Below are positions 160 to 51,300 of a DNA stretch of 64,000 nucleotides, one piece after another. The position numbers were made by a program, and so were the translations under genes. The notes under the pieces were generated by a model. It saw only the letters and a program-made list of their open reading frames with translations, ran no database searches and had not been told where the DNA came from. Where the stretch lies: the NCBI GenBank assembly GCA_963971285.1, contig OZ020244.1, forward strand, positions 24,862,001 to 24,926,000, in the 5' to 3' direction. The first letter of the stretch is position 1; each line of letters starts with the position of its first letter. This DNA comes from Astropecten irregularis (taxonomy: Eukaryota > Echinodermata > Asteroidea > Paxillosida > Astropectinidae).

Positions 160-790
160 GGTTTCTTACCTGACCACCTGGGACAAATTTCGTAGCCTTA
201 CTTGATGATCAGTGATGCTTTTATACTTCATATTGTGATTTACTGTAGCTTAAAAGTTTGCTTTTTTACTAAAATGCATTAATGTGTTTCGTGCCCTTAA
301 ATTTGTAACACATGTGGCGATTTTCAATGTTTGGTCATAGATCATTAAGTCTGGTGACTTAAGCAAGTTTTTTCTGTGTTCACTGTCAAAAACCTGCTTA
401 GCAAAACCTGTCTTAAAAATTAGGTAGGTAGTGAAGATGCATGTGTATTCCTTGTGACAACTACTAAGCTTATAAAGGGATGTGAATTTGTGCATTATTT
501 TATGCTCAGCAATATTGTGTGCTTAAGACCTTCAATGGTATAACTAACTAGCTTCCCAGTAATGGAACTGACCTGGCTTGGCAAAGGCAGGGGGGACTCC
601 GTTTTCCTGCTTTTCAAAGTCCAGACGGTCTTTCTTCCGCATCCTGAAAAAAAAAAAAAAAAAAAAAAATACAACAAAAAATTAATAAATAAGATTAAAT
701 TGATTTTGCTTCTCACAGATTTAAAACTCAGTAGGCCCTATATGGTCAAGATTCTTGAGAAACATTGACTTTTGGGTAAAAAAATAGCAA

Positions 791-15198: not shown

Positions 15199-15358
15199 CT
15201 GATGAACAGAAAGCTGAGGCCCACGATCAGCAGGGCCAGGACGTAGGCCATCGCAAAGACCACTCCTACTATCGTCCCTGTGTGGGAGCCGGAGGGTTGG
15301 CTGGCCACAGTGCTGTTGGGAGCATTCGTAGTGCCGGGAGCCTCCGTAGTGTTGCCAA
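15199..15358 (-). CDS. Coding exon 12: stalk and transmembrane helix
   Basis: 160 nt, phase 1 in, phase 2 out. Acceptor CTATACAG|TTGG, donor ATCAG|GTAAGT. It encodes a Thr/Ser/Pro stalk (GNTTEAPGTTNAPNSTVASQ) with two sequons and then a helix of about 25 residues (core VVFAMAYVLALLIVGLSFLF). The next codon begins AG, so Arg or Ser starts the cytoplasmic side. If this donor is not used, the frame stops two bases later (AGG TAA), giving a tailless membrane protein. Confidence 0.88.
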
Positions 15359-18300: not shown

Positions 18301-21300
18301 GTGACTCAAATGTCAGATTGATCTCAAATTATCACAGGTTTATTATTTCATTTACATGTTTGATCAAACAAAGTGTAAGTGCTGTTCTGTGACCTTTACT
18401 AATCATGTATCATACCTTTAAGACAGAAATTTCATGGTTAGCAAATTTTGTGCTAAGCAGGGCCGTGAAATTGGCCCCAGGTCACCGATCCAAATCAGGC
18501 GCTGACAAGTTCTTGGAGGACCTACCTTGTTTCTCGATGGTAAAGAAGACCCACTCGGATGCTTCTCCCTGTTTGACCCTGGAGGAAGGTTGGCTGGAGG
18601 AGTCAGACAGCGACAGGCTGGTGGTGGCTGCCTGGACCTTCACCACGTACTGTACTCCGCCCTGTAGGTTCTCTAAGATTCTCCACAGCTTGTCAACCTA
18701 GGAAAGGTGGCATCAGATAGGGAAATGTAAGAGAGGTTTTTTTGGGGGGGCAGGAGATTTATTTTTTACCTTTTAACCTTTTCAGGCTCTTATTCGGGAT
18801 ATCCCAAGGATATGGAGCCCAACTGTGGGTAGAGTATATAAACATGTAGGTGATACTGAAAGGGGGCTATGCGGATGTGTACTCGACCTCATAGGGCCTT
18901 TACGAAAAATTGGCTTGGGCTCCGGCTTGCGCTCCATTTCTTACATCCAATAAAGTAACAGGTATCAAAATAGAGGTTTTGGGGTCCAGGTTTAAAGTAC
19001 ATACTCTGTTTCAAACAAGAAAATGGGGCTTCAACCTCTGAGAAAATTCACAACCTGTATTTTCAGCTTTTAGATGATGGAGCCTAAGCCTAAGCCCAAG
19101 CCCAAGCCGTTGTTTAATCCTAATCCATAGTGTATGAGACATATGGGGGCCAACTGAGTACAAAGTGTATGATACTGAAAGGGGCTACGGTATGTGGATG
19201 TGCACTCATAGTACATGTATGTGAAATATGGAAGGCTTGGAGGCCAACTGTGTGTATAATTTTTTTATCCACAAACTGGCTAGGAATCTTTGGCACTCTA
19301 TTGTGGATGTGGAGGTTCAACATGGCCCAAAGTCCAAAAGTTTCCGGGGGTCAATTTCACAAAGCCTTATGATCAATCGTAAGTCCAGTTAGGAAGGATA
19401 ACCCATCGTATCCTACGTGGGGCTGCAATGCATCATGTAAGTCCTATGATGAGTTATGATGAGTTTGGTGAAATTGACCCCAGCTCCCTTTGGCACAAAA
19501 GAGCCTTTGTTCCTATCTGCCTCTGGAGCAGCAGTTTAAAGTGGCTTAAAGTTGACGGGAGGCAATAGCAATTCCAAAAGTTCACTTGTTCCTAAAAACA
19601 TTTCAGTTGTGCCTTTAAGAGAGAGGGGAAATCTTAAACAGAATCCAGTCAACATTATGGAGATCTTTCACAACTTAAAGGTTTACTGTAATCAAAACAC
19701 ATATGAAGTTAAATACATCTGTATTGTTATAAAACTCAACCTGTCTATCACTGTTTGTGCTAAAAAATATTTTATATAGAAAACGGAGGTATTTTAGGCC
19801 CATAATTTAGCACCCCACTTTTTGCGTCGAAAAACCTTGCTTAAGTCACATGCAGAACGCCATGCAGTATACTGTGTGGCGAGCTTATACTAGTTCTGTA
19901 TGTGACGTCACTTTCTTTTGTTGCGTGGATAGATTCCAAGGGGGACTTTTTTGGGGGCGGGGCATACATTTACATGTACTGATTTTGAAACGTTTTGGTC
20001 GAAAGTAAGCACTTACATAAACATAAATATATATAGTCATTAATTATGTATTAAGAAATAATTTTAAAGTACTTTCACCCCTTTCCCAATTTTGATTACA
20101 GTAAACCTTTAACCAAAACAAACCCTGCATGGACAGCCTCTCATATGTGACCAAATGGTCAAAGGCCGGTGAGCTGCCATTTAACCCTCAACATCTATTC
20201 ATCCAGCCACGGTATCAAATGGAAACTCGTTTCAACTGGAATAGCCTAAATTTAGACAGAGCATTTCTAAATGCCATTTAAAATTAAGCACAGGCTCATG
20301 TTAATTTTTGTTCTTAACAAATGTTGAATGATGATAATTACTCCTAGGTTCTTAACAGATTTTCTTCAAATTTTACCTCCAGGGCAATCTTGGTCTTAAC
20401 CAATGTAACCACAGGGGATATTACTGGAAGACTTATATCCCTTCCTTGTAAGGTGCCTTGTGATCCTAGCAAGAGATACGTCTTGACAACTGGGAGTCAA
20501 ATTTACAGTGAGCATGAGGAAGTTCAATTATTCAGAAGAGGGGACCTTCTTTGGCTTTAAGAACGAAGCGCGCTGATTGCACTTTAAAGATCATAAAGTT
20601 CTGAAATTCATTATCATCACTGTGGGAGATTTGTTAGTGCGCCCTCTGTGGGTTGCTTCCAAAAGCGCCCTCTAAATTATTATGCAATACATGTATGTCT
20701 TCTCCAGCCACTCCCATACTGTAACTATCTTGTCTCTTGACTTGGCACTCACTCTCACATAATGACTGTCTTGGCTCTACTTTCCTCAATAGCTTGACAA
20801 GTATTTTACTCTTGGCAAACATCGTCCTGATGGAAGTCAAGTTAATAGTTCAATTTAACTTGGGCCCAATTTCACGGAATCTGTTACCGTAAGCAAAAAT
20901 TCTTCGCTTACGTTTACAAACTTGTATTGCTTCTGGTTAGCGTATTTCACAGAAGAGTTTTCTTTCTTGCTATGCTAAGCAAGGACTTTCTGCAGAATGC
21001 ACATGACAGCACGCCACCAGAAAAAAAAAATCATGGTTAGCCTCGAAATTCTTAGCTAACTGTTTAAGCGCCAAAAGTCTTGCTTACAAATTCCATGAAG
21101 CAGAAAAATAGACCGTAACAGATTCCATAAAAATTGGGCCCTGGTTGAAGTCTTTTCTCTTTCAAATCCGTATCCATGAAGTCTATCCAGTATCCACCCA
21201 AAACTACACAAAGAACATTTTTCTGACGTCCATAAGGACTGCTACAAAACAAATTGCAATTGTTCTTTGATATCACTTTTTAAACCCTGGGCAGGAACAA

Positions 21301-30300: not shown

Positions 30301-33300
30301 ACGATACTATTACATAGGCTCACTCAGCTTGGAAGCTCGCCAAAAAATAACAAGCATTCTCATATCAATAGAGAAATGTTGAAGGGGTCCAAGGCAATAA
30401 GGGATTCTAAAACTTGACCCAAATCTCAGAGATCTAGATGTAGATCAAATTATTGTCAGTTACATTTTTTTTTTGGGGGGGAGCTTTTATTAAGACTGGA
30501 GGTTTAAATCACAGCTTCACGATGTTGAGCCACATTATGTGTACATTAAATAAATAATGCAATGAGGTGCAATGCACAAAAACAATTATACAGTAATCCG
30601 AGAACAAGTTTTTGAATGGCGCCCTCTTTTGAAAAAAAAAAAACTGCGGTGGTGTTTTTCAATCTAGTGTGCTACACCTCAAGGTCTGTACATGGTGCGC
30701 AATTTATTCCTGAAAAGAAATTAAGAGACTTGGAGAAAACTTTTCATCATGGACAACGTCTCCCGGATGTCCTTGCTGGTTTTTTGCTCGTGATAAGCTT
30801 TCCGGCTTCCTAGATTTAAATAAAAGAATATTTAAATAAAAGATGATTTCGCAGTGTGAAAAATATTACACTGACACCACCGCAGTGTTGCAATTTGTGT
30901 GGCGCCACCAAACATCTTTATGTTTTCTTCAGATTACTGTATAGGTAAAATCCAAGCTGCAACCTCTAACTTCAACTAGAAGTTTTTGGATGCTGTCAAA
31001 CTCACCTCTACGGCTTCCATGGTGACATTCTTGCCAGACTCCCAGTAAGTGACCGTGTAGCTGTCCACACTCTTATAGAACACCTCTGGCTTCATCCAGG
31101 AGACTCTGGCTCGACCCATGCCGATATCCGTGACTGTGACATTGACCGGAGGACTGGGGGCTGGTAGAGGGAGAAGGGTGGGGCAAGGGGAAAGAAGAGA
31201 AGAGAACAAGAAATACATCATTTTGGGTCATCTCTTGGCTGATAATACAAGGTCAAGATACAGTGGAACACCACTATAACAAACACCGCTATAACAAAGT
31301 TATGGCTATACTGAACATCATCCTTGGCTCCCAATTTTTATGTACAATGTATAAGACATGCTGAACATTGTTCACTGTAATGAACGACCACTATAACGAA
31401 CAATTTCTGTGCATCCCTTCGTGTTCGTTATAGTGAACCGAACATCATCCTTGGCTCCAAATCTTTGTGCACAATGTATAAGACATGCTGAACATTGTTC
31501 ACTATAATGAACGACCACTATAACGAACAATTTAAGTGCATCCCTTCGTGTTTGTTATAGTGGCATTCCACTGTACCGAACATCATCCTAGGCTCCCAAT
31601 CTTTGTGCACAATGTATAAGACATGCTGAACATTGTTCACTATAATGAACGACCACTATAACGAACAATTTCTGTGCATCCCTTCGTGTTTGTTATAGTG
31701 GCATTCCACTGTATAATGAACACCGTTATACCAAACAATCAGCAATACCAAACATCATCCTTGGCTCACAATTTTTGTGTACAATGTATAGGCCTACTGA
31801 ACATTGTCCGCTTATGATAGGTATTTTTTGTTTACGGTTCTTGTATTTCATGAGACAGTTTTATTTCTCGCTAGGCTAATGCACTACAACTCCGGCTTTG
31901 TGCATGGTGCACGATGTATTCCTGAAAGAAACACAGAGTAAGAATATTCGACATGGACAATATCTCCCGGATTTCCGCACCGGTCTTTTACTCATGATTA
32001 GATTTCCAGCTTCCCAGATTTCAATAAAAGGCGGTGTACAAAATAATATACTGAGACCACCACAGTTTCTTGTTTTAATCAAAAGAGGGCGCCATTCAAA
32101 ACCGTGTGCTCGAATTACTGTATTGTTTTGAATAGTTTATTCTAAAAACACGTTGAGAAGAACCACACTGGGCTGGCTTCAATACAAAGTAAGGCTTGTC
32201 ATATTGTTATGTACAGTTGAGATCCTAACAAAGTACATTATGAACTTGACTGATAACATTGCATTCCTTTTAACATTCCAGACTATCAAATATTTCCCCT
32301 CATGAACAACCTTAGCAGGAAATGTTTATAGTGAATTGAAAGAAAAGTTTTGAAATGCAGAGCTCTCATGTTCTTGGGACCACTTCATGAATGTAGCAAT
32401 GCCCTCGTTGATAAGTTTTATCACAAGGCAAACATGGAAAACATGAGCATGGTATCTTTCAAGGAATGCTTTTAGAGTTTATAAAGACGGAAGTATAGTT
32501 ACGGGCTAGCTTGTGATGCACTGGGATTTTGGACAACATGCAAGTATAATGTTGACGATACCAGTGAATACCCTCACCCTGACCAAACCTCCATTACCCT
32601 CCAAAATTCCTCTCGAGATATGAGCAACAAATATTACAATACTAAATCTGAGAATGTAACAACATTCTGACAATTCAATCCTGGCAGAATCTTTCTTGGC
32701 CCTTATCCAAACCTTGGCTCAGGCTCAGGCTCAGGCTCCATTTCATGTATCAATCATAATTACTGGGTATCAAATCAGAGGCTTTTTGCTACGGTTCGGA
32801 AGTAGATTCTCTGGTTTGAACAAGAAGACCATTCAATGAAAAACCACAACCTATATTTTTGGCATATGAATAACAGAGACGAAGCCACAGCCTGAGCCGG
32901 AGCCGAGATTTGGCAAAAGGGCCTTGGTGTTTGCAAAGAATCTCCGAGATTCAAAATGTCAGGTCAACTTTCATTCAGACAGACAGCCAAGAATAGAAGC
33001 TTGCCAGTGGAGTGATGTCATTCATGTCCCTGGATCTCAGAATCAGACAATGTGCGTCAAATCCACATGTAGCCTGCACAAACGGTACTGGAAGAGGTTT
33101 GTCTGATATACGGGTACTTCAGTCAAAGGTAACAGTCAATAGCCCTTATTCACAGTGCATCATATCCAAATTGCATTCGGAGCAGTGCAATCAAACCGAG
33201 GCTTGGATTCAAATTAGTCTGGTACCTGTTTTCCTTTTAGAATTGGTGTTATCTTTTCCAAAGAGTGTACAAGGAAGGTGACAAAATAGATGCGCCATGA

Positions 33301-36300
33301 ATATTAAGGCCTATCGAACACCACTGACATTAAGTCATTGCAGGCCTACCATGTAGTTTAATTGAACACCATGATTCAAATCCTGCTAGTAATGCACCAC
33401 TAGGGGCCAATTTAAAAAAGCTGCTTAAGCATCAAAATTTGCTTAAGCATCAAAAATGAAATAAAATCAGTATGCCAGCCCAAACTCCTTGTGAATGTTA
33501 TGCTCAGCAAACAATGGCTGAATACAAGTCGAAAGCAGTAAAAATCACATGGAAATTTGGTTGGTAATCCCGACTGGTCAAGACTTTTCATGCTTAAAAG
33601 CAAATTGTGTGCTTAAGCAGCTTTATAAAATTGGCCCCAGTGCCCTCATACAATAGCTGAACTATCCAGAATACACACATCTCCCTATTTTCAAACTCCT
33701 TCTGAACATTGCTGGAAGTGACTAGAAAACAAATCACACATGAGAATATTGATGAGGTAAGCATTCACGGTGAGTCATATATAAAGAGAAACACATTGAT
33801 GGCGTCTTGTAGTCTCTCTAGGGTGTACACTGACATACACTGGTGCCCTCATCAATGCCAATCCTACAAGTAGCCATATTCATGAGTCAACAGAAGATTG
33901 TTGGCAGTCAGAAAACTGATAAAGAACTATGAATGCCGAGTATAAGGCTGAGAACCCCTTATGTAGTGACTTACAGACCCTTTTAATAGTGTAGTTTCAT
34001 ACCAAGGACGAGGTGCAGTGGTCACCATGACACATGACACTTGGGGCGCGCATTACATTATTCACAGCTTGAAATTAACTATGAATATCATGCGCAAGAT
34101 GGCAAAGAATGGCGATGCAGGAGGAACATCGAACATCACAAATATCTGGGAACAAATTTGTGATGTTTGACACATCGTACATCACAAATTCACAAATATC
34201 TGCGCATGTTTTGTGATGTGCAATGTTTGCACAAATATCTGGTGCACATAATGACGTGTGATACACTTGTAATAGGTTACATTATTTTGCGGCACAAATC
34301 TGCGCACATGTGGTTTTTATATGTGGCATGATTTTTCTGAATAATCTTTCTTTGTTTAGTTACGGTACAAAGAACTAAAGTGAAATGTAAACAAAAAAAG
34401 TTATTATAACAGCGGTCAAGTGCAACGACATGTGCAATAACGGTGTGCAGTCAGCGGTTGTGATTCACCCATGTCATATGTCATGGCTGCAACAAAAATG
34501 TGTGATGACACTCTTCAGTGCTATTGGTATAGACAAGCATTAGTGTCTTGACTGCCTGTCAATATAGCTATAATATCCCCCCCATCATGCTTTAGATTAC
34601 TGGCAGTGAGAGTACAGGTAAAGAACTACAAATGCAGGGTCAGACCAATTCTTACAGTCCCTTTAGGTGCATAGACATGCACTATTGACCGGCAATAGAC
34701 AGGAACTTTTCTATCCCCAAAATACTCTCGTAACTACTAAAGAGTGCTGGTTGTGGATAAGCATTAGCACATTACAAGTGAGAATACTGATAAGGACTTC
34801 AAGTACAAGTTGTCGAGTGAAAGAAACCCTGTTTGTAGCCACTTCAAGACCTAGTTTACAGACATGCAGTTACAACCCTCAATGGAGGTCAATAGGTCTA
34901 CAGTATCCCCTAATCAGACCTTTACTAGAGAGTGCTGGCTACGGATAAGAAAAGCCGTACATTTGACCTGATCAAAAATATTGCAAAAGGGCTTCTAGTC
35001 CCCTGAGTCCAGATATCAGTTCCTATTCTAAACCCAGTGCTATTTGTTTAAGATATCTCTCTTTGCACACTAGTATAAACCGGCCCTTGGACTTACGCGT
35101 GGCATTCTCACCGGCCTCGCTCCGCGGCACGTGGGTCAAGGCACAGCGTATCTGGAGGATGCAGAGAGCCAGGAACGCCAGGAAGAATACGGTCTCCCAA
35201 CCGCCAATCTGCTGGATGCAGAGGTCCGTGAAATCCAGGCCGATCATCGGGTTTAATATAAAGATGCAACACACACTGGTTCCTTGTATTTGTGGAGAAG
35301 TTTCTCACAAGCAGGCTGGTCCGAAGTCCAATCAGATGTTGATGATGGTGATGTCACATGCTTCACGTGACATATGTCTTCTTTCCTGATGGCTACATAA
35401 CCTCGTTCTGTCTGTTGTTAATCCTTGAGAACAGACAACTATCCACAGCCAGCGGAAAGCATGATGATGCGCTTAACGACCGAACAAAATTCCTTTGGCT
35501 TGACAAAACAGCAAAAATCCGCACTACACCGTGGCAAGATTTCGCCAGTAACAACACCTGCAGGGTCACGACATAACCTTTTAGTTAAAAACATCCACGG
35601 GGAGGTAAAAAAAAAAAGAACGGCGGGTGCCAAGCTCGAGCCAGAATCAAACTGCAAGATCTCTGGTGCAGAGTTCAAATCTGAGGGTATTTTATGAATA
35701 CACTGCACGGCACACACGCGTCGATCCGCACAGACAAACATGAATCACACATCCCTGACTACAACTCCCCTGGAAGGTTGCAGTGACTGGCACAGCTGGA
35801 TCACCATCCCCCCAAACCACCAGCTCTAACAAACATTGGCCCGTGACTGTGATTTCTGCCACAATTCCTGCCGACCATCCAAGTGGGAACCCCCTGTCGG
35901 TCCCTGCCGATAAATCTAGAGGGTCCCCTCATTCATCCACTGAAAACACCACAAAGTCTCTCAGATTTGCTTGCAAGCGAGGCCACCGACCAGTACTTTT
36001 GAGGTCGGGAAGCCCAAACCGAGACAGCGTTAGTGCCGTATTTCCATGAGGTAATCCTCTTAAGCCGTCAGCTGTGTCGAGCAAAATCCCAACCAGTCCC
36101 CAAAAACTGGCTCACAATCCCATCCCGCAAAAAAAAAAACATGGAGCATTACTGGCTATCCGGACATTAAAGGGTGGGAAAGAAAAGAACCTGTACGCCA
36201 AATGTCAACGTTTACAGACCTCCTGGACGCCAGAGGAAGTGAAAAGGGCCAGAGGGGCGACAACCTGCAAGTTTGTGAGAATGAATCATCTTGCATATGT

Positions 36301-42300: not shown

Positions 42301-45300
42301 ATTTTGATACCTGTAGAATGGATTCACGAAATTGAGCCAGAGTCTGAGCCTGTGCCAAGGTTTGAAAAGGCCCAGGCTTTAGTCATCTGCAGCTTCCAGC
42401 TAGGAAACGAAAAAAACAAAACTAAACCATGTCCGTCTGAACAGCACTCACCAGCTACATCAGTATATGCCTTCAGCACAGGAGTGGACTGGCCTTCTCC
42501 GATGTTGTTTTCTGCCGTGACTTGAAACTCATACATGGTGTAAATATCTGGGGAAAAAGACACAACATTGAAAACAATTAAAAAATTGGAGAGTCATGTA
42601 AGTGCTGTACGGTCCTCGTAGTTTGAGAATACAAAAACACTGGTAACACTGTAAGCTGGGGTCGATTTCACGAAGCCCTACGATTGATCATAACTTGAGA
42701 TACAAAGGTTATCCCATCGTATCCTTTAACTTCTACGTAAGGCTGCAATGCATCATAAGTCCTATGATTGAAAGTTAGTTACGATGAGTTTGGTGAAATC
42801 AACCCCAGGTGTGCTTACTCTACAGAAAGTTGAGGGAATAATAGAATAAATAGGGAAAATAATTGAGTTACATGTACCATTGATTGTGTAAATGTGTAAT
42901 ATGAGTTTGGTATGGGGTTTTTGGCTATCAAGTTTGTTTCAAATAAGTTTGGGTTTTCACACATGCATGGAGCTAGCAGTTGCCACCGTAAAGGAAAACA
43001 CAACAATTGGTTTTAGTGGTTTGTGTTAGTGGTGCTTGTATCCTTAGGCAAGGTCCTCTTCAAAGTGCCCCTCTTCACCCAGGTGTAAATGGGTACCTGG
43101 GCATAAAGCAATCTTTACCCTAAGGTAGAGATTGCTGTGTGCTTGATTAGCCGTTGTGTGCCTTACAGCAGCCGAGGACTGTATACTCCAGGGAGTTGAG
43201 ATGGTTTCAGGAATGTTAATACAGTAAATACAGTGGAACGCCAATATAACGAACACGCTGGGATGCACTGAAATTGTTCGTTACTATGGTCGATCGTTAT
43301 AGTGAACAATGTTCAGCAGGCCTATATATTGTACATAAAAATTGGGAGCCAAGGAAGATGTTCGATACAGACAAATGTTCAGTATAGCAGTGTTCATTAT
43401 AGTGGGGTTCCACTATAAAATGCCCACAGAGATATCATTCATTCTGATATGTGCTTGATATAAGCCGTCTGACCCAAAGGAGAAAAAGAAACTGTGAAGT
43501 TTTACCGAGCATGGTCCTGGTATGATACATCAACAACGTAGAGGTCAAGACCCTGTTCCAGACAGAGCTACCACCCTTCCTGAAGTCCACGTTATACGTG
43601 GCCGACTCCGAGTTGAGACGGTCAGGCGGGAACCAGAATACTGTGATGCTGTCCTCATTACGACCCACAACCTTCAAACCTTTCGGAATGCCTGGAACTG
43701 AACAAGGCAAAAGAGTTCAGTTAATAGAAACAATGCAAAACTTATTCTTGTTCTGAAAATTGACAGGGGCGGGATTCGAACTTGCGACCTGCAGAATACT
43801 GTAATGGTACTCTACCAACTGAGCTATCCAACCCTATGTTGGCATTGTCCCAAATTGTTAATTGCATGTATCTTTGAAAAGTGAACAAAGAAAAATTGAC
43901 TGGAGCGGGATTCGAACCAGCGACCTCTGGAATACTGTACCGGCACTCTTACCAACCGAGCTACCCAGCCCTAAGTTGGTGCAGAATTCCAGAGGTCGCT
44001 GGTTCGAATCTGGTTCCTGTAAATTTTTCTTTGTTCACTTCAACGACTACAAATTCAGTCAGTTTCCTTTGTGGTTATCTGATACTTACAAGTATCTTTA
44101 CTCATTCGCCAGTCAGAAGCCATGAAACCATTCACATGCTAGACCTTTTCAAAAGCATGTGGACAATATACACAAAGATTGTTTATTTCTCAAAGTTCTA
44201 TACCATCCGCCATTATTGCGGTGTCCCCGCCCGCCTTTTGTGTGGCAACAAAAGAATTAATGCTCTGCCACACTCTATGCTGCAGGGTGTACATCCCCTG
44301 AGTGCGAGCGCAAAATCTTTTGTTGCATTAATTCTTGTGTTGCCACACAAAAGGCGGTCGTGGACACCGCAGTAATGGCGGAAGGTATGTCGTGTCGTCC
44401 GATCAGTGTATAGCTCATGTGGTCCAGTTTTCAACTGACAGGCACCTGTCTAGCGCCCTCTTGTGGTGACACACATACTGTGAATCACGTGTGTAATAAT
44501 ACTGTTATCTTACCATCCTCCATTGTCTGCACGACTACTTCGTTGCTGTAGGGACCCACTGCGGCCTCCCCCATACCAGTGTTGACTGCAGCTACCTTGA
44601 TGGTGTAGTTGGTATACGGCAACAAATTCATGACCTCTTTACGCTGAGTAAAGGAAAATACAACATACAAACATTCACATTACTAATATGCTGCGCACTT
44701 GAAATTAAGGAAGGTTTGCGGTGACACCGTGTATAAACTCTTTTCAAAGAGTGAGGTTCTGAAAAGAACCTATTACTCCATGAAAAGAGTTTATACAAGG
44801 TGTCTCCGCAAACCTTCCTTTCTTATGTAACTTCCACCATGCAAAGCTTCAAATCCTACAGATAGAAATTACACAAATCAGGACAGACACATGCGGAACA
44901 GTTACCTAGATATCAAATTACTACTGAGATAGAAAAACTTGAATACTGGCCGGGCCTAGCCACTGGAACGCCTGGCCATGCCTCGGCTTTGATTAGGCTT
45001 TGCAGCTTCTGTATTCCAACTTGGTCATGGGTACACAGTATTCGTTTGAAGTAAATCAATAGCCACATCATAGACTTGATGTGGGCAGGACTTCAGTCTG
45101 AGCAGGCCATCCAGTGGCCTGGCTTAGTGATTTAAGCAGCTCTGTTGGAATTGAAGATCAGACCTACCAAAAACGAGGATTTCAGGCCTGATGTCCATAT
45201 GCCTGGCCAGGCTTTTCAATAGCTAGGCCAGACTAGTATGAATGTTTCTCTGTTTTATGCTTTTCAAAGTTTGGAGGACAATTTTGCATTTCTTGTATTG

Positions 45301-48300
45301 TGTTCATGAACTGATAATAATTGCGAACATTTTTGTAACAGCTGGGGCCCTGCTTAAGCACAACATTTGCTTAAGCATGAAAAGTCTTCCTTGATCAAAC
45401 AGGATTACCAACCAAATGTTCATGTGATGTTTACTGCTTGTATTCAACCATTGTTTGCTGAGCATAACATTCAAAAGGAGTTTCGGTTGGTGAATTGATC
45501 TTTTTTACCAAGGTTTTTGAATGTTGGTGCTTAAGCAGCTCTATGACATCGGCCCCTGGCAAGCACTGAGCGAGTGTGTCAGGGGTGGGATGTGGGAGGG
45601 GATGTGGGAGGGGAGGGGAGGGGAGTGGGTCTCGATCAAAAATCAAACTTACTAGGCTGGAGCCGACAGACATCACCCGAGTAGGCACACCTTGCTGAGG
45701 GGTGAGTATGACCTCGTACCCAAACAGTTCCCCATTCAGGGAATCAGGAGGGGGCGCTGTAAATCTGACATCAATGACAGATGAGCTTGATGCTGTGGCA
45801 ATGACACCAGTTGGAGCAGTCGTTGGGGCTGCGAAGATCAAAGATCAAACAAACAAATAAATAGATGTAAATTAATAAATAAAAACTTAAAATTGACCTC
45901 AATCAAGGACAATTCCTCAGGAGTGCTTCCAACCATGGGGCAGCTTCCTACAGTTCCCAAAGCACTCAATTTTGCTCAGGCACAGAAAAATACGTTGCTT
46001 AGCATCCACAGGCCATCAATCAAAATCCTCCTTTGTTGTATAATCAAATTCGCAAATCGAATGACTTTGTACAGACTTTTTATGACTGGTGGGTTAACAT
46101 AAGCTATGATGAGAAACTGTTTCTTAATTACAGGAAATAAAAGGCGGGCGGGGACACCAGAGTAATGGCGGATGGTATTTCATGCTGTCTGATCGATGTA
46201 TATGCATGTCAATGCGTGTGGTAAAACTTCTAAGCTTCATGATTGCCCAGTGTCCTTTGCATGTGCATGCGTAGTGCCGAAAACGGGCTATCTTGGATAA
46301 CGTCCATGGACTCAGACTTACTACCAGGCCCTGTTCGAAGGACAGCCACCCCGCTTTGCTTGGTGTAACTTCCTACGTATTTAGCCTCCACCCAGAAGCT
46401 GTATTCAGTGAAGACCTCTAGGCCTTGCACCAGGAGCGAAGTCTCCAGTGGAGGAGAGATGGCAAACCTCAGGGCTGTGGAGTCTGGAGCGCCGGTAGCT
46501 GCCCCTTTCCTGTCAGGACAGAGCAAATCATGATATAAAAGAAGAGTCCCACATTTAAAGGACAACATCAATCAATCACAAACACAAAGACATGTCCTAC
46601 AAGCACTGGCTCACCAAAGCAGATGCCTCTTTCATAGAGCTGCTTATTAGCACAAAATTTGCTTCAGCATGAAAGGTCTTCCATGATCAAACAGGATTTT
46701 CAGTTGTATTCGGGCATTGTTTGCTGAGCATAACATTCACAAGGAGTTTTGGCTGGCATACTGATTTTATTAACCAAGGTTTTTAGTGCTTAGCAAATTT
46801 CGGTGCTTATGCAGTTCTGTGAAATCGGCCCTGTTGTGTTGATAGCTAATGCTATTTGCTTTCTGGTGAAATAAGGTCAAACTCCTAACCCACTGACCGT
46901 CTGAAACAATTTCCTATTGTCATTGATAAGTACCGGTAATGATAACACACGGTATTCACATACCATTACTCATGCACTGTAGTTCAAATAGCATCAAATG
47001 AATAGGTTTACCGGTATATGTGACATAAGGCTCTCAATATGTACATGAAATAATAAACCTGTGTAAATATGTGCTCAATGAGAATCTAAGTCATGAAAAA
47101 AAACCAAGAAAACCCGACTCAATTTTTCTTATAAAACATTAAGAATGGTTTTGATCTTACACAAGATCAAAACTGTTTTACATTTTTGTTTGGACTTATT
47201 TCTTGATAAATACACTATTTCAGATGGAAATGCTTTACGGCATTTTTCTACCAGCACCATCTGCATACCCTGAAAGTTGTACGTAAATCTGTAACTATTT
47301 CTGTTTTGGTTTGTTACCAATGTTGTACATGCCCTTTAAAGGTTGTCTTGCACAATGCAATGGCAAAACAAAACAAAACCATGAACAACTCTAGCTTGTT
47401 CATCCAGTTCAATTTTGTAAAACGTGCTACTACCGAACTGCAGAAACGTTATCAACAAACTGCACTTTTCAACGACAATCAGCCAACGGCACTTGTCGTC
47501 ATCAAAGTACGCAATTCATATTCTTCAGGGACTTGAGATTTTGTTTTTGTGGATTCTTAAATATTTTTCTCTCGTTTCTTCGCCAGTCTAGTTCCATTTT
47601 GCCAAAAGGGCACTGTCAATCTTGTTTTGACTAGCTATTGTTGCCTTATCAGCTTGTGAGAGGAGGTAATATTTTGTTCTCCCCGGGGATAATGTTCCCA
47701 GGTCATCTCAGAGAGAGGGCTGTGGTTTCTTCAATCCCGAGGAAATCTTAAGGAGAATCATTTCCAAGAGGCCTGTAGGCTGTAGATGTGAGTTTGTATA
47801 GTGTACAGAGTATTTCAAATCTGTTCTTAAGTAGGATTTGAAGCTTTGCGTGGTGGAGCTAACGTGTATTAAAGAAGGTTTGTAGAGACACCATGGAACT
47901 CTTTTCTAGAAGTGTGGTTCTGAAAAGAACTGGTGAGAAGTTTCCGATGTTCCAGCCAGTATACTCAACAAACCTTCTTTAAATTTGCTTGAAGTTAGGA
48001 GGGCCTGAGGCGTTTCGATCCTAGCAGGGCCAGGATCTTTATCGATATTAAAGATCCTGCTAGGATCGAAACGCATCAGGCCCTCCTAACTCCAAGCATT
48101 TTATAAATTTCAGGTCATTATTTTGGCTGATGAGCTGTTTACAGCAGATTATTACATTTTGTATTGACTTATTCAAATTTGTTCTAAATGTACAATCAAC
48201 CGTGGACCATTGGAGCATCGTTAATTTGTTGACCCGTACCAAAGCCGAGTTGGCTCACAGAGCTAGAGGGGTCAACATGAACAATGCAAGGGTTTGGACG

Positions 48301-51300
48301 GTTGGTCCATGGCCATGCGGAGTCAGACACCAACCTGTATAGAACCTCGTAGGATAAGACCGGTCCGTTGGTCGGATTCCACGTGATGTCTATCGATGTG
48401 TTTTTGGTCTCCCTGTTCATTGGGTCTCCCGGGGGCGACGGCTCTGCAGTTAGAAAAACGAAAGTTCAAGAAACAGAGGAGAACGGCCAATCAGAATGGA
48501 GACATGGTAAAATGCTATGTTGACATGATGAAGCTACTCACTGGAAAATACGTATCTTACCCTTCCGGCTTTGCTCTTTAAGCCTCAACCACGTGTGTTT
48601 TACATACCACATGTGACCGAGTTTGACCGAGGTTTTCGTGGTCACCTGATTCAAAAGTGTCATCTGATTGGTGAATGCATACAGTTTGATTGACAGGCTA
48701 GAAGGGTCCACTGCTCTAAATTGTTCCCTGAACAAAATGACCCTATTGATAAATGTATCTATGCAAAAATAAGGTGAAATACATGTAGCCATACGTTTTG
48801 ATGCTCAATAAGAAAGGCCTTTTAACCCTAACCCTAGTGCATACCACAGTTTACCACACATGGGCCCAATTTCATGGAATCCATTACGGCCTATTTTTAT
48901 GCTTACGGGCACTGCTACGCGTGAAATCTATTTCATGGAATACGTATAGCAAGACTTTCAGTTAACGAAGAATTTCTAGGGTAACCGTGATTATTTTCTG
49001 CATTTTCTACATTCTGCACAAAATCCTTGCTTACCGTTACCAAAAAGAAAACTCTCCTGTGAAATACGCCAACCGTAACCAAAAAAGAAGAATTTTTGCT
49101 AACGACAACAGATTCCATGAAATTGGGCAACATTTGGTTTTTCCTGTGGTTAAGTGTGGTACCGGTATTCTGAATACCACAATACAGCACAATGTGGTAT
49201 TCATGGTAAAGCATGGTTTATAATCCACCAGTGCCCAATTTCATGGAATCCGTTACGGCCTATTTTTGTGCTTATGGGCACTGCTCCGCGTGAAATATAT
49301 TTCATTATAAAGTTTCAGTGCTTTATCGGTTAATGAAGAATTTCTAGGCTAACCTTGACTTTTTTAACTGATAAAGTGCTGTCATGTGCATTCTGCAAAA
49401 AAGTCCTTGCTTAGCGTAGCAAGAAGGAAAACTCTCCCGTGAAATACGATAACCATAAGCAAAAAAGTCTGCTACCATAAGTGAAGAATTTTTGCTGACA
49501 GTAACAGATTCCATGAAATTGACCCAGTTCCTCTTGTGGTAATGTGTGGTAAGCAACTCTTGTCTTGTGCAGTAGGCGCAGAGGGTTCAGGTTTATAATC
49601 CAAGCTTTGATACAGCAACCGAGTTGCAATAAATCAAGTCCCAGGGATATCCTAAAAGGATTATTAACCCTCTCCTCTAAAACCAGGCCAAGATGTGACC
49701 TGATCTCTCTTTCCTGGGGTCGATTTCACGAAGCCCTACGATCGATAGATCATTACTTGAGTTACGAAGGATAACTAATCGTAGGAGGCTTATCCTACGT
49801 AGGACTGCAATGCGATCATTAAGTCCTAAGTTACGATGACTTTGGTGAAACCAACCCCTGGAGCCTTGTCCCCCTCCCTCCCCAAGAACCGTACCCCATG
49901 CTTGAAGACACCAAAGATCCCATTATAAACTGAACTTGTATCTTATCAATACTGCACTCTCGGGAAGAACATGAAAGCAAAAATGCCCTCCAAAAATAAC
50001 CAAAATGAGTGACAGCACAGCCTTGCAAGTTCCATTATTCAAAGGAACAGGTGAATCTATGGACAGCGGCAGACAGGTGAATACTGTGGCCAGAAATAAA
50101 CCCGTGATGATCCTGAAGCTAAGCTAGGGTCTCAATGGCTGTCATTCAAGACGCATAAAAGCATGTGCACCTATAGAGAGAGAGACGCGGTCACTACGTG
50201 GTCAATACCTCTCTACGAGAAGGAAGAAAAGTCAAATTGGAGGTAGTGCCTGCTTGCACCTGTGACAATAATCCTATGATTCGACCTCTGAGAATGGCAC
50301 AGAAGACAGACGGATCATTCCAACGCTGCAGGTTACTGTGGAAGAATTTGCCATCACATCGCATGATGTCTTTTTTTATGTATCAACATTGCTGATTAAC
50401 TAGTCAGGGGAATTGAGATTTTGAATGTGCGCGTACCATAAAAACAAGTCAGGGAAGCAGACATTAGGTAGATTTTGCAAGAGGGTCATTTGGGGCCTTT
50501 CTTAAAGCTCGGCTCCGGCTCAGGCTTCATCTCTGTAATCCGTATGCTGCAAATATAGGTTGTGATTTTTCATTGAAGCTGAAGCTCTGTTTGTTTGTTT
50601 GTTTTTAAACCAGATAATCTACTTCTGAACCGCAGCCAAAAACCCCTATTTTGATACTTTAGAAAGGATTCACGAAATGGAGGAGTCTGAGCCGGAGCCG
50701 GAGCCTGAGCCAAAGCCAAGCTTTGAGAAAGACGCCAGGTGTCTGAATTACTGGGCTAAGGATTGAAATTACACAAGAGTCCATTCGAAGTGGCTGCAGC
50801 AGCTTCCTATAGACACGTGTGTAAATCAAAGCCGTAGCCAAATAATTTGGTCACAGACTGAACATGTGCAGTGCTGCCTTGCATTCTCTATGAGCTTCTA
50901 ATGTTTTCAGCATAATTAGTGAAGAGTGCTATTGCCCCCATGCCTTCTGGTCATTGCCTTAGTGCCCCCAAAAACATTTCCATAAGACAATTTCTGTTTC
51001 TTGTACTATAGCGCCCTCTGTCAAGGAAACAACAAGTGCCCTGTCCCTTTAAGAACGTAAAGTCCCTGCCCTGGTGAAGGCAGGTGCGAACTAACAGAAT
51101 TGAGATGTTTGTTTAACCAGAAGACAAGATACATGTACAGTATGCGAGGTGAATGGCATGCAACATTACATGATATACACTGACGGTACATGTACATGTA
51201 GATGACAGTTTTGAGCGACATACAATAGGCATAATACATGTATTATTTTATTAATGTATACATGTACATGTACATTGTACAACGCTCTGTATAAACTTTA

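Follow-up and report, generated by a model that had tools for sequence, protein, structure and literature searches.

The minus strand of the 64-kb window (the window being the whole stretch of DNA analysed here) carries ten coding exons that form one chain, as judged from splice sites, codon composition and Pfam matches (Table 1). When joined they contain no stop codons and encode four FNIII domains, a stalk, one transmembrane segment and a basic juxtamembrane piece; Pfam fn3 matches four stretches of the joined chain (2.2e-43), and every FNIII domain both starts and ends in phase 1. Splice sites were scored with an approximate matrix, and with it the donor at 48335 is also weak (1.8); the exon at 42547-42452 has a low coding score (5.1), the acceptor at 31160 is strong (7.1) and that of the juxtamembrane exon (643-573) is very strong (12.2). 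The juxtamembrane exon is separated from the transmembrane exon by a 14.6-kb intron, and because it contains no stop codon the gene seems to leave the window after it and to continue past the window edge.

Upstream of 48443 the window gave no convincing exon. An exon scan of the minus strand from 48.5 to 64 kb gave just five weak candidates (scores of 4.7 or lower), and we therefore place the N-terminal part of the long form, including its own first exon, probably beyond the window. Ten of the minus-strand ORFs in the interval 48.5-58.3 kb were compared with Pfam, and none of these ten matches an Ig domain; one may be encoded outside the window.

The FNIII array has a phmmer match to receptor phosphatase F (4.9e-23) and a better one to titin (6.1e-30), and the similarity is that of FNIII domains generally. 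The array is colinear with receptor phosphatase F (query 1-334) and delta (query 1-357) in alignments that span the 42452/31160 junction (residue 296), which supports a single gene, though the FNIII similarity is generic. A comparison with solved structures, made to name the receptor, gave generic FNIII matches alone. Similarity of this kind does not suffice to name the receptor or to assign it to LAR.

By eye, several copies of a unit containing GTTCGTTATAGTGGTCGTTCATTATAGTGAACAATGTTCAGCATGTCTTATACATTG are seen at 31300-31760 (minus), with similar sequence near 43420-43230, and a dispersed repeat with words like GGGGCCAATTTTATAAAGCTGCTTAAGC occurs at about 33690-33400, 45560-45340 and 46830-46630 (minus).

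Table 1. Coordinates of the receptor exons and of the predicted features of the internal exon within the window.
Feature	Positions	Strand	Remarks
FNIII domain 1, first half	48335..48443	minus	long-form exon; first convincing one within window
FNIII domain 1, second half	46325..46509	minus	long-form exon; donor -1.2; in-frame alternative 46322, donor 1.9
FNIII domain 2, first half	45653..45828	minus	long-form exon
FNIII domain 2, second half	44514..44643	minus	long-form exon
FNIII domain 3, first part	43506..43697	minus	long-form exon; donor weak (-0.6); in-frame acceptor 43691 scores higher
FNIII domain 3, end	42452..42547	minus	long-form exon before 11.3-kb intron; donor CTG|GTGAGT, phase 1
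putative promoter/5' UTR	35248..35400	minus	E-box, Y-box, raised CpG; suggestive only
candidate alternative first coding exon	35112..35247	minus	45 codons + 1 base, MIGLDFTDLCIQQIGGWETVFFLAFLALCILQIRCALTHVPRSEA; donor CCG|GTGAGA, phase 1
predicted signal peptide, residues 1-35, cut C35|A36	35143..35247	minus	von Heijne score 7.0; n-region acidic, not basic
optional 15-nt extension	35097..35111	minus	second donor CGC|GTAAGT; adds GENAT
FNIII domain 4, first half	31006..31160	minus	shared exon; phase 1 in, phase 0 out
FNIII domain 4, second half	18526..18697	minus	shared exon
stalk and transmembrane segment (GTIVGVVFAMAYVLALLIVGLSFLFI)	15199..15358	minus	shared exon
basic juxtamembrane piece, start of cytoplasmic tail (MRKKDRLDFEKQENGVPPAFAKP)	573..643	minus	shared exon, without stop

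The internal exon and its coding signal

The 11.3-kb intron contains a candidate exon that a sequence-only reading had put forward as an internal first exon. Its ATG at 35247, the upstream in-frame stop at 35307-35305, the frame open through 35097 and the GTAAGT at 35096 can all be read in the sequence, and the 151-nt exon leaves in phase 1, which matches 31160 just as 42452 does, with frames that stay open when joined. The earlier choice of donor stands only in part, as GTAAGT does follow 35097 but the better-scoring GTGAGA after 35112 had been overlooked, and either position may be the end of the exon. The two donors score 5.6 (35112) and 2.3 (35097, which lacks a G at -1); there are 13 minus-strand and 11 plus-strand donors with scores of at least 5.6. 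Because the two are spaced by 15 nt, phase 1 is kept by either. The coding score is 22.1 to 35097 and 18.6 to 35112, and the 3.5 bits added by the extension mildly favour inclusion of the 15 nt, the N-A-T sequon of which could be functional. The context of the ATG (cccgATGa) is weak at -3. The stretch that lies in frame before the ATG (35304-35248) has no acceptor scoring above -2, which makes a first exon the preferred assignment and cassette use not easy; a cassette exon entered from 42452 was ruled out on this ground and because entry at 35151 breaks the phase.

The three codon positions of the exon have GC fractions of 0.58/0.42/0.82 if it ends at 35097 and of 0.58/0.40/0.84 if it ends at 35112, a pattern of the kind seen in several of the shared exons, but stronger. 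None of 255 ATG-initiated 45-codon ORFs outside exons reaches its synonymous-codon or position-specific score, and among 11,483 open 45-codon frames outside exons one equals the synonymous score and none the position-specific score. In a second count, with a tenth exon masked as well, GC3 is reached by 1 of 11,414 frames, and the contrast between GC3 and GC2 together with GC1 at least equal to GC2 by eight of them. Sums over twelve codons in the exon frame are negative for starts 35337-35274 (-5.2 to -6.6 at 35319-35292), turn positive for starts 35265-35094 and are negative again from 35085, so that the coding signal spans about the ATG to just past the donors; non-coding sequence on the far side of the in-frame stop also has mildly positive sums (2.6 to 4.9, starts 35373-35346). 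The internal exon scores no more than +2.7 in a codon model that takes amino-acid content into account. The antisense frame over it has a coding score of 16.2 with weak splice sites, and such antisense shadows occur over real exons too (20.6, for instance, across a portion of 18697-18526). Counting ATGs on both strands, nested and exonic ones included, gives 2,781 (1,379 minus and 1,402 plus), 94 of which (50 minus and 44 plus) are followed in an open frame by a donor scoring at least 2. Seven of these 94 (three minus and four plus) are signal-peptide-like, and 35247 alone among the seven scores clearly coding (22.1/18.6, the next best being 0.6). Taken together, the composition tests indicate that the internal exon is coding rather than a chance open frame.

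The hydrophobic core described for the exon is present, with a 12-residue Kyte-Doolittle mean of 3.2. The signal-peptide prediction itself is mixed: the von Heijne score of 7.0 exceeds the customary cut-off of 3.5, but the n-region of 18 residues is acidic (D5, D8, E18), which is unusual in signal peptides and would also suit a reverse signal anchor. The codons of the core form a pyrimidine-rich run that closes with CAG, a cryptic acceptor at 35151 (5.2). A polypyrimidine tract just before exon 31160, at 31221-31161 (minus), in frame behind an ATG, reads MMYFLFSSLLSPCPTLLPLP and looks like a signal peptide, and we take it as a caution that pyrimidine tracts mimic signal peptides. A read-through first exon starting at this ATG (31221) was rejected, as it scores 3.2 and is weakly hydrophobic despite its signal-like look. 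At the internal exon, GC3 is 0.84 in codons 1-32 (before 35151) and 0.85 after, and the high value upstream of 35151 argues for coding over the whole stretch.

Putative promoter region, candidate splice partner and predicted product

The putative promoter region contains a palindromic E-box, TCACGTGA, at 35370-35363, which is the sole copy in the window, and a Y-box, CTGATTGG, at 35335-35328, one of five such octamers in the window; about 0.8 pairs of an E-box and a Y-box no more than 60 bp apart are expected per window. The CpG observed/expected ratio is 0.76 in 35248-35600 and 0.87 in the internal exon, as compared to 0.53 window-wide and 0.30 just downstream, and it ranges from 0.39 to 1.14 across the six other exons measured. 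Segment 35490-35091 ranks 255th of 3,150 segments in CpG observed/expected and 73rd of 3,150 in CpG count. These promoter signs are suggestive, not exceptional. A TATA-like TATATTAA sits 6-13 nt before the ATG, too close to serve 35247. A scan of 35000-35700 for bacterial promoters and terminators gave no promoter-like sites and is uninformative for an animal gene. Searches of viral contigs with the exon-10 peptide and of plasmids with 31006-35400 gave no relative, in collections that are not expected to hold animal DNA. No other copies of 36100-34601 are found within the window at E 1e-3, and a transposon origin of the internal exon was dismissed because this segment is single-copy there.

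No internal exon passes the thresholds on the minus strand between the internal exon and 31160 (35.1-31.2 kb), and exon 31160-31006, which is an in-frame partner of donors 35112, 35097 and 42452, is the favoured splice partner because it is the next downstream exon to pass them and its phase fits. The predicted short form has 231 (donor 35112) or 236 (donor 35097) residues to the window edge with no stops, with a Pfam fn3 match at residues 48-124; it would keep the membrane-proximal FNIII module alone, together with the shared transmembrane and juxtamembrane segments in frame. The alternative first exon of the sequence-only reading thus gains support from composition, predicted signal peptide and phase, while the Ig-like part that it had assigned to the long form is absent from the scanned ORFs and its number for the exon ending at 42452 (exon 9) is tentative, as the window gave no convincing exon above 48443. 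The short form may lack a "ligand-binding part", as that reading described it.

Open frames, matching phases, splice consensus, coding composition and the signal-peptide score are the observations on which we propose that 35247-35112 (or 35247-35097) is an alternative first coding exon of a short receptor, transcribed from an intragenic promoter and spliced to the shared exons, a reading to which we give a probability of about 0.68. A second promoter inside the 11.3-kb intron of this single-pass multi-FNIII receptor gene would drive the internal exon, and the transcript would be spliced from 35112 (or 35097) to 31160. The product would be a short type I membrane protein, in which a signal peptide that is cleaved off and a linker of about ten residues precede FNIII domain 4; its stalk, transmembrane segment and cytoplasmic tail would be those of the long form. 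The shared tail would then reach the surface without FNIII domains 1-3 and anything preceding them, and the short form, if it is delivered there, may be independent of ligand, compete with the long form or be targeted differently.

Competing explanations

If two genes are present rather than one, 35247 would start a small FNIII membrane protein (35247, 31160, 18697, 15358, and 643 onward) and FNIII domains 1-3 would belong to a separate gene ending before 35 kb. In favour of this, the internal exon has the character of a genuine first exon, and the joining of 42452 to 31160 is itself a prediction. A terminal exon that could close such an upstream gene was, however, sought in 42.4-31.2 kb (42440-31170) and none is convincing among the best 8 of 93 candidates (top total 10.1); moreover, the FNIII exon phases are compatible, joining 42452 to 31160 preserves the frame and yields an FNIII linker of normal appearance, and the array is colinear with receptor phosphatase F across the junction. 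We regard a pair of genes as unlikely. It is less likely still that the internal exon is coding but opens another transcript, such as that of a nested gene, whose next exon went unrecognised. Candidates were judged on composition and splice score alone, and weak exons (such as 42547-42452, with its score of 5.1) could escape; a terminal-exon candidate at 31921-31876 has a strong acceptor (7.7). This candidate is read in phase 2, however, which does not match the phase-1 donor, and with no internal exon passing the thresholds in 35.1-31.2 kb it is 31160 that combines a strong acceptor (7.1) with a fitting phase.

The two remaining explanations deny that the exon is a first exon, or that it is coding, and to each we assign a slim chance. 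The exon at 42452 could splice in, for example at 35151, making this an internal or terminal exon of the long transcript with the hydrophobic stretch serving as a transmembrane or frameshifting segment; the core does also make a polypyrimidine tract whose CAG precedes 35151 (acceptor 5.2), the frame continues beyond the donors to a stop at 35025-35023, and the charge pattern fits an N-out segment. By arithmetic, however, entry at 35151 gives an exon of 40 or 55 nt in phase 2, mismatching 31160, and both the equally high GC3 before and after this point (0.84 and 0.85) and the lack of any acceptor better than -2 in the in-frame sequence preceding the ATG speak against it. Alternatively the segment could be a GC-rich non-coding element (a promoter, enhancer or antisense exon) that is open and hydrophobic by accident, for which the E-box, Y-box and raised CpG hint at regulatory DNA and the antisense frame scores 16.2, though with weak splice sites. 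A chance ORF was rejected on the window-wide counts, the scores being matched by none of the 255 ATG ORFs and by at most one of the 11,483 frames outside exons; the composition also shifts near the ATG and again shortly after the donors, and it follows by arithmetic that GC1 would be lower than GC2 in the antisense frame of high GC3, unlike in the sense frame.

Relation to known short receptor forms

The proposed internal first exon can be compared with several short receptor forms, as they are described in the available portions of the sources cited. In vertebrates, a downstream promoter gives rise to beta-neurexin, which combines a signal peptide and an N-terminal stretch of its own with one LNS module, a transmembrane segment and a tail (PMC2570956), and alternative promoter use in neurexins is also described in PMC12665717. 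The likeness to the alpha/beta-neurexin pair would lie in a short single-pass form with its own N-terminus, a predicted signal peptide and one ectodomain module; the modules are LNS and EGF there and FNIII here, and the promoter and isoform are established there but predicted here. In the honeybee the alpha- and beta-like neurexin forms come from splicing rather than promoters (PMC2570956), and a short form thus need not imply an internal promoter.

Among Ig/FNIII receptors, an intronic promoter in intron 11 of rat LAR (PTPRF) gives a transcript without the upstream ectodomain exons (PMC2674045), and the likeness is that of a single-pass receptor with an intronic promoter, which here is putative. 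The short LAR form has no predicted signal peptide according to this source, and human has ACG in place of the ATG that closes the novel 5' UTR of this form (PMC2674045), whereas the internal exon described here carries a predicted signal peptide. PTPROt is made from an alternative intronic promoter and has the transmembrane and cytosolic domains of full-length PTPRO with eight extracellular residues (PMC8645932), as opposed to the whole FNIII domain in the predicted form here. Short-form RON/Stk is a receptor from an internal promoter (cited in PMC4979590); it differs in being a receptor tyrosine kinase, and an own signal-peptide exon is not described for it in the available portion of that source. 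A search of the literature for a matching case gave none among the matches listed. The kind of arrangement is thus already known, and its own predicted signal peptide together with the retained FNIII domain would distinguish this member. A more specific version, in which a beta-neurexin-like pair exists in an FNIII receptor gene, the tandem donors toggle five residues with an N-glycosylation sequon at the new N terminus, and a ligand-sensing long form stands beside a separately regulated, ligand-independent short form, is speculative, and we think it improbable as a whole.

Internal first exons can be spotted in a DNA sequence by itself through a shift in codon-position composition at about the ATG and the donor. 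If the internal exon is transcribed, the receptor tail and the main ectodomain would be separated under a second promoter, and knock-downs, antibodies or mutations targeting the upstream exons would miss the short form. The gene would then provide a further instance of the neurexin-type layout, in a different module family.
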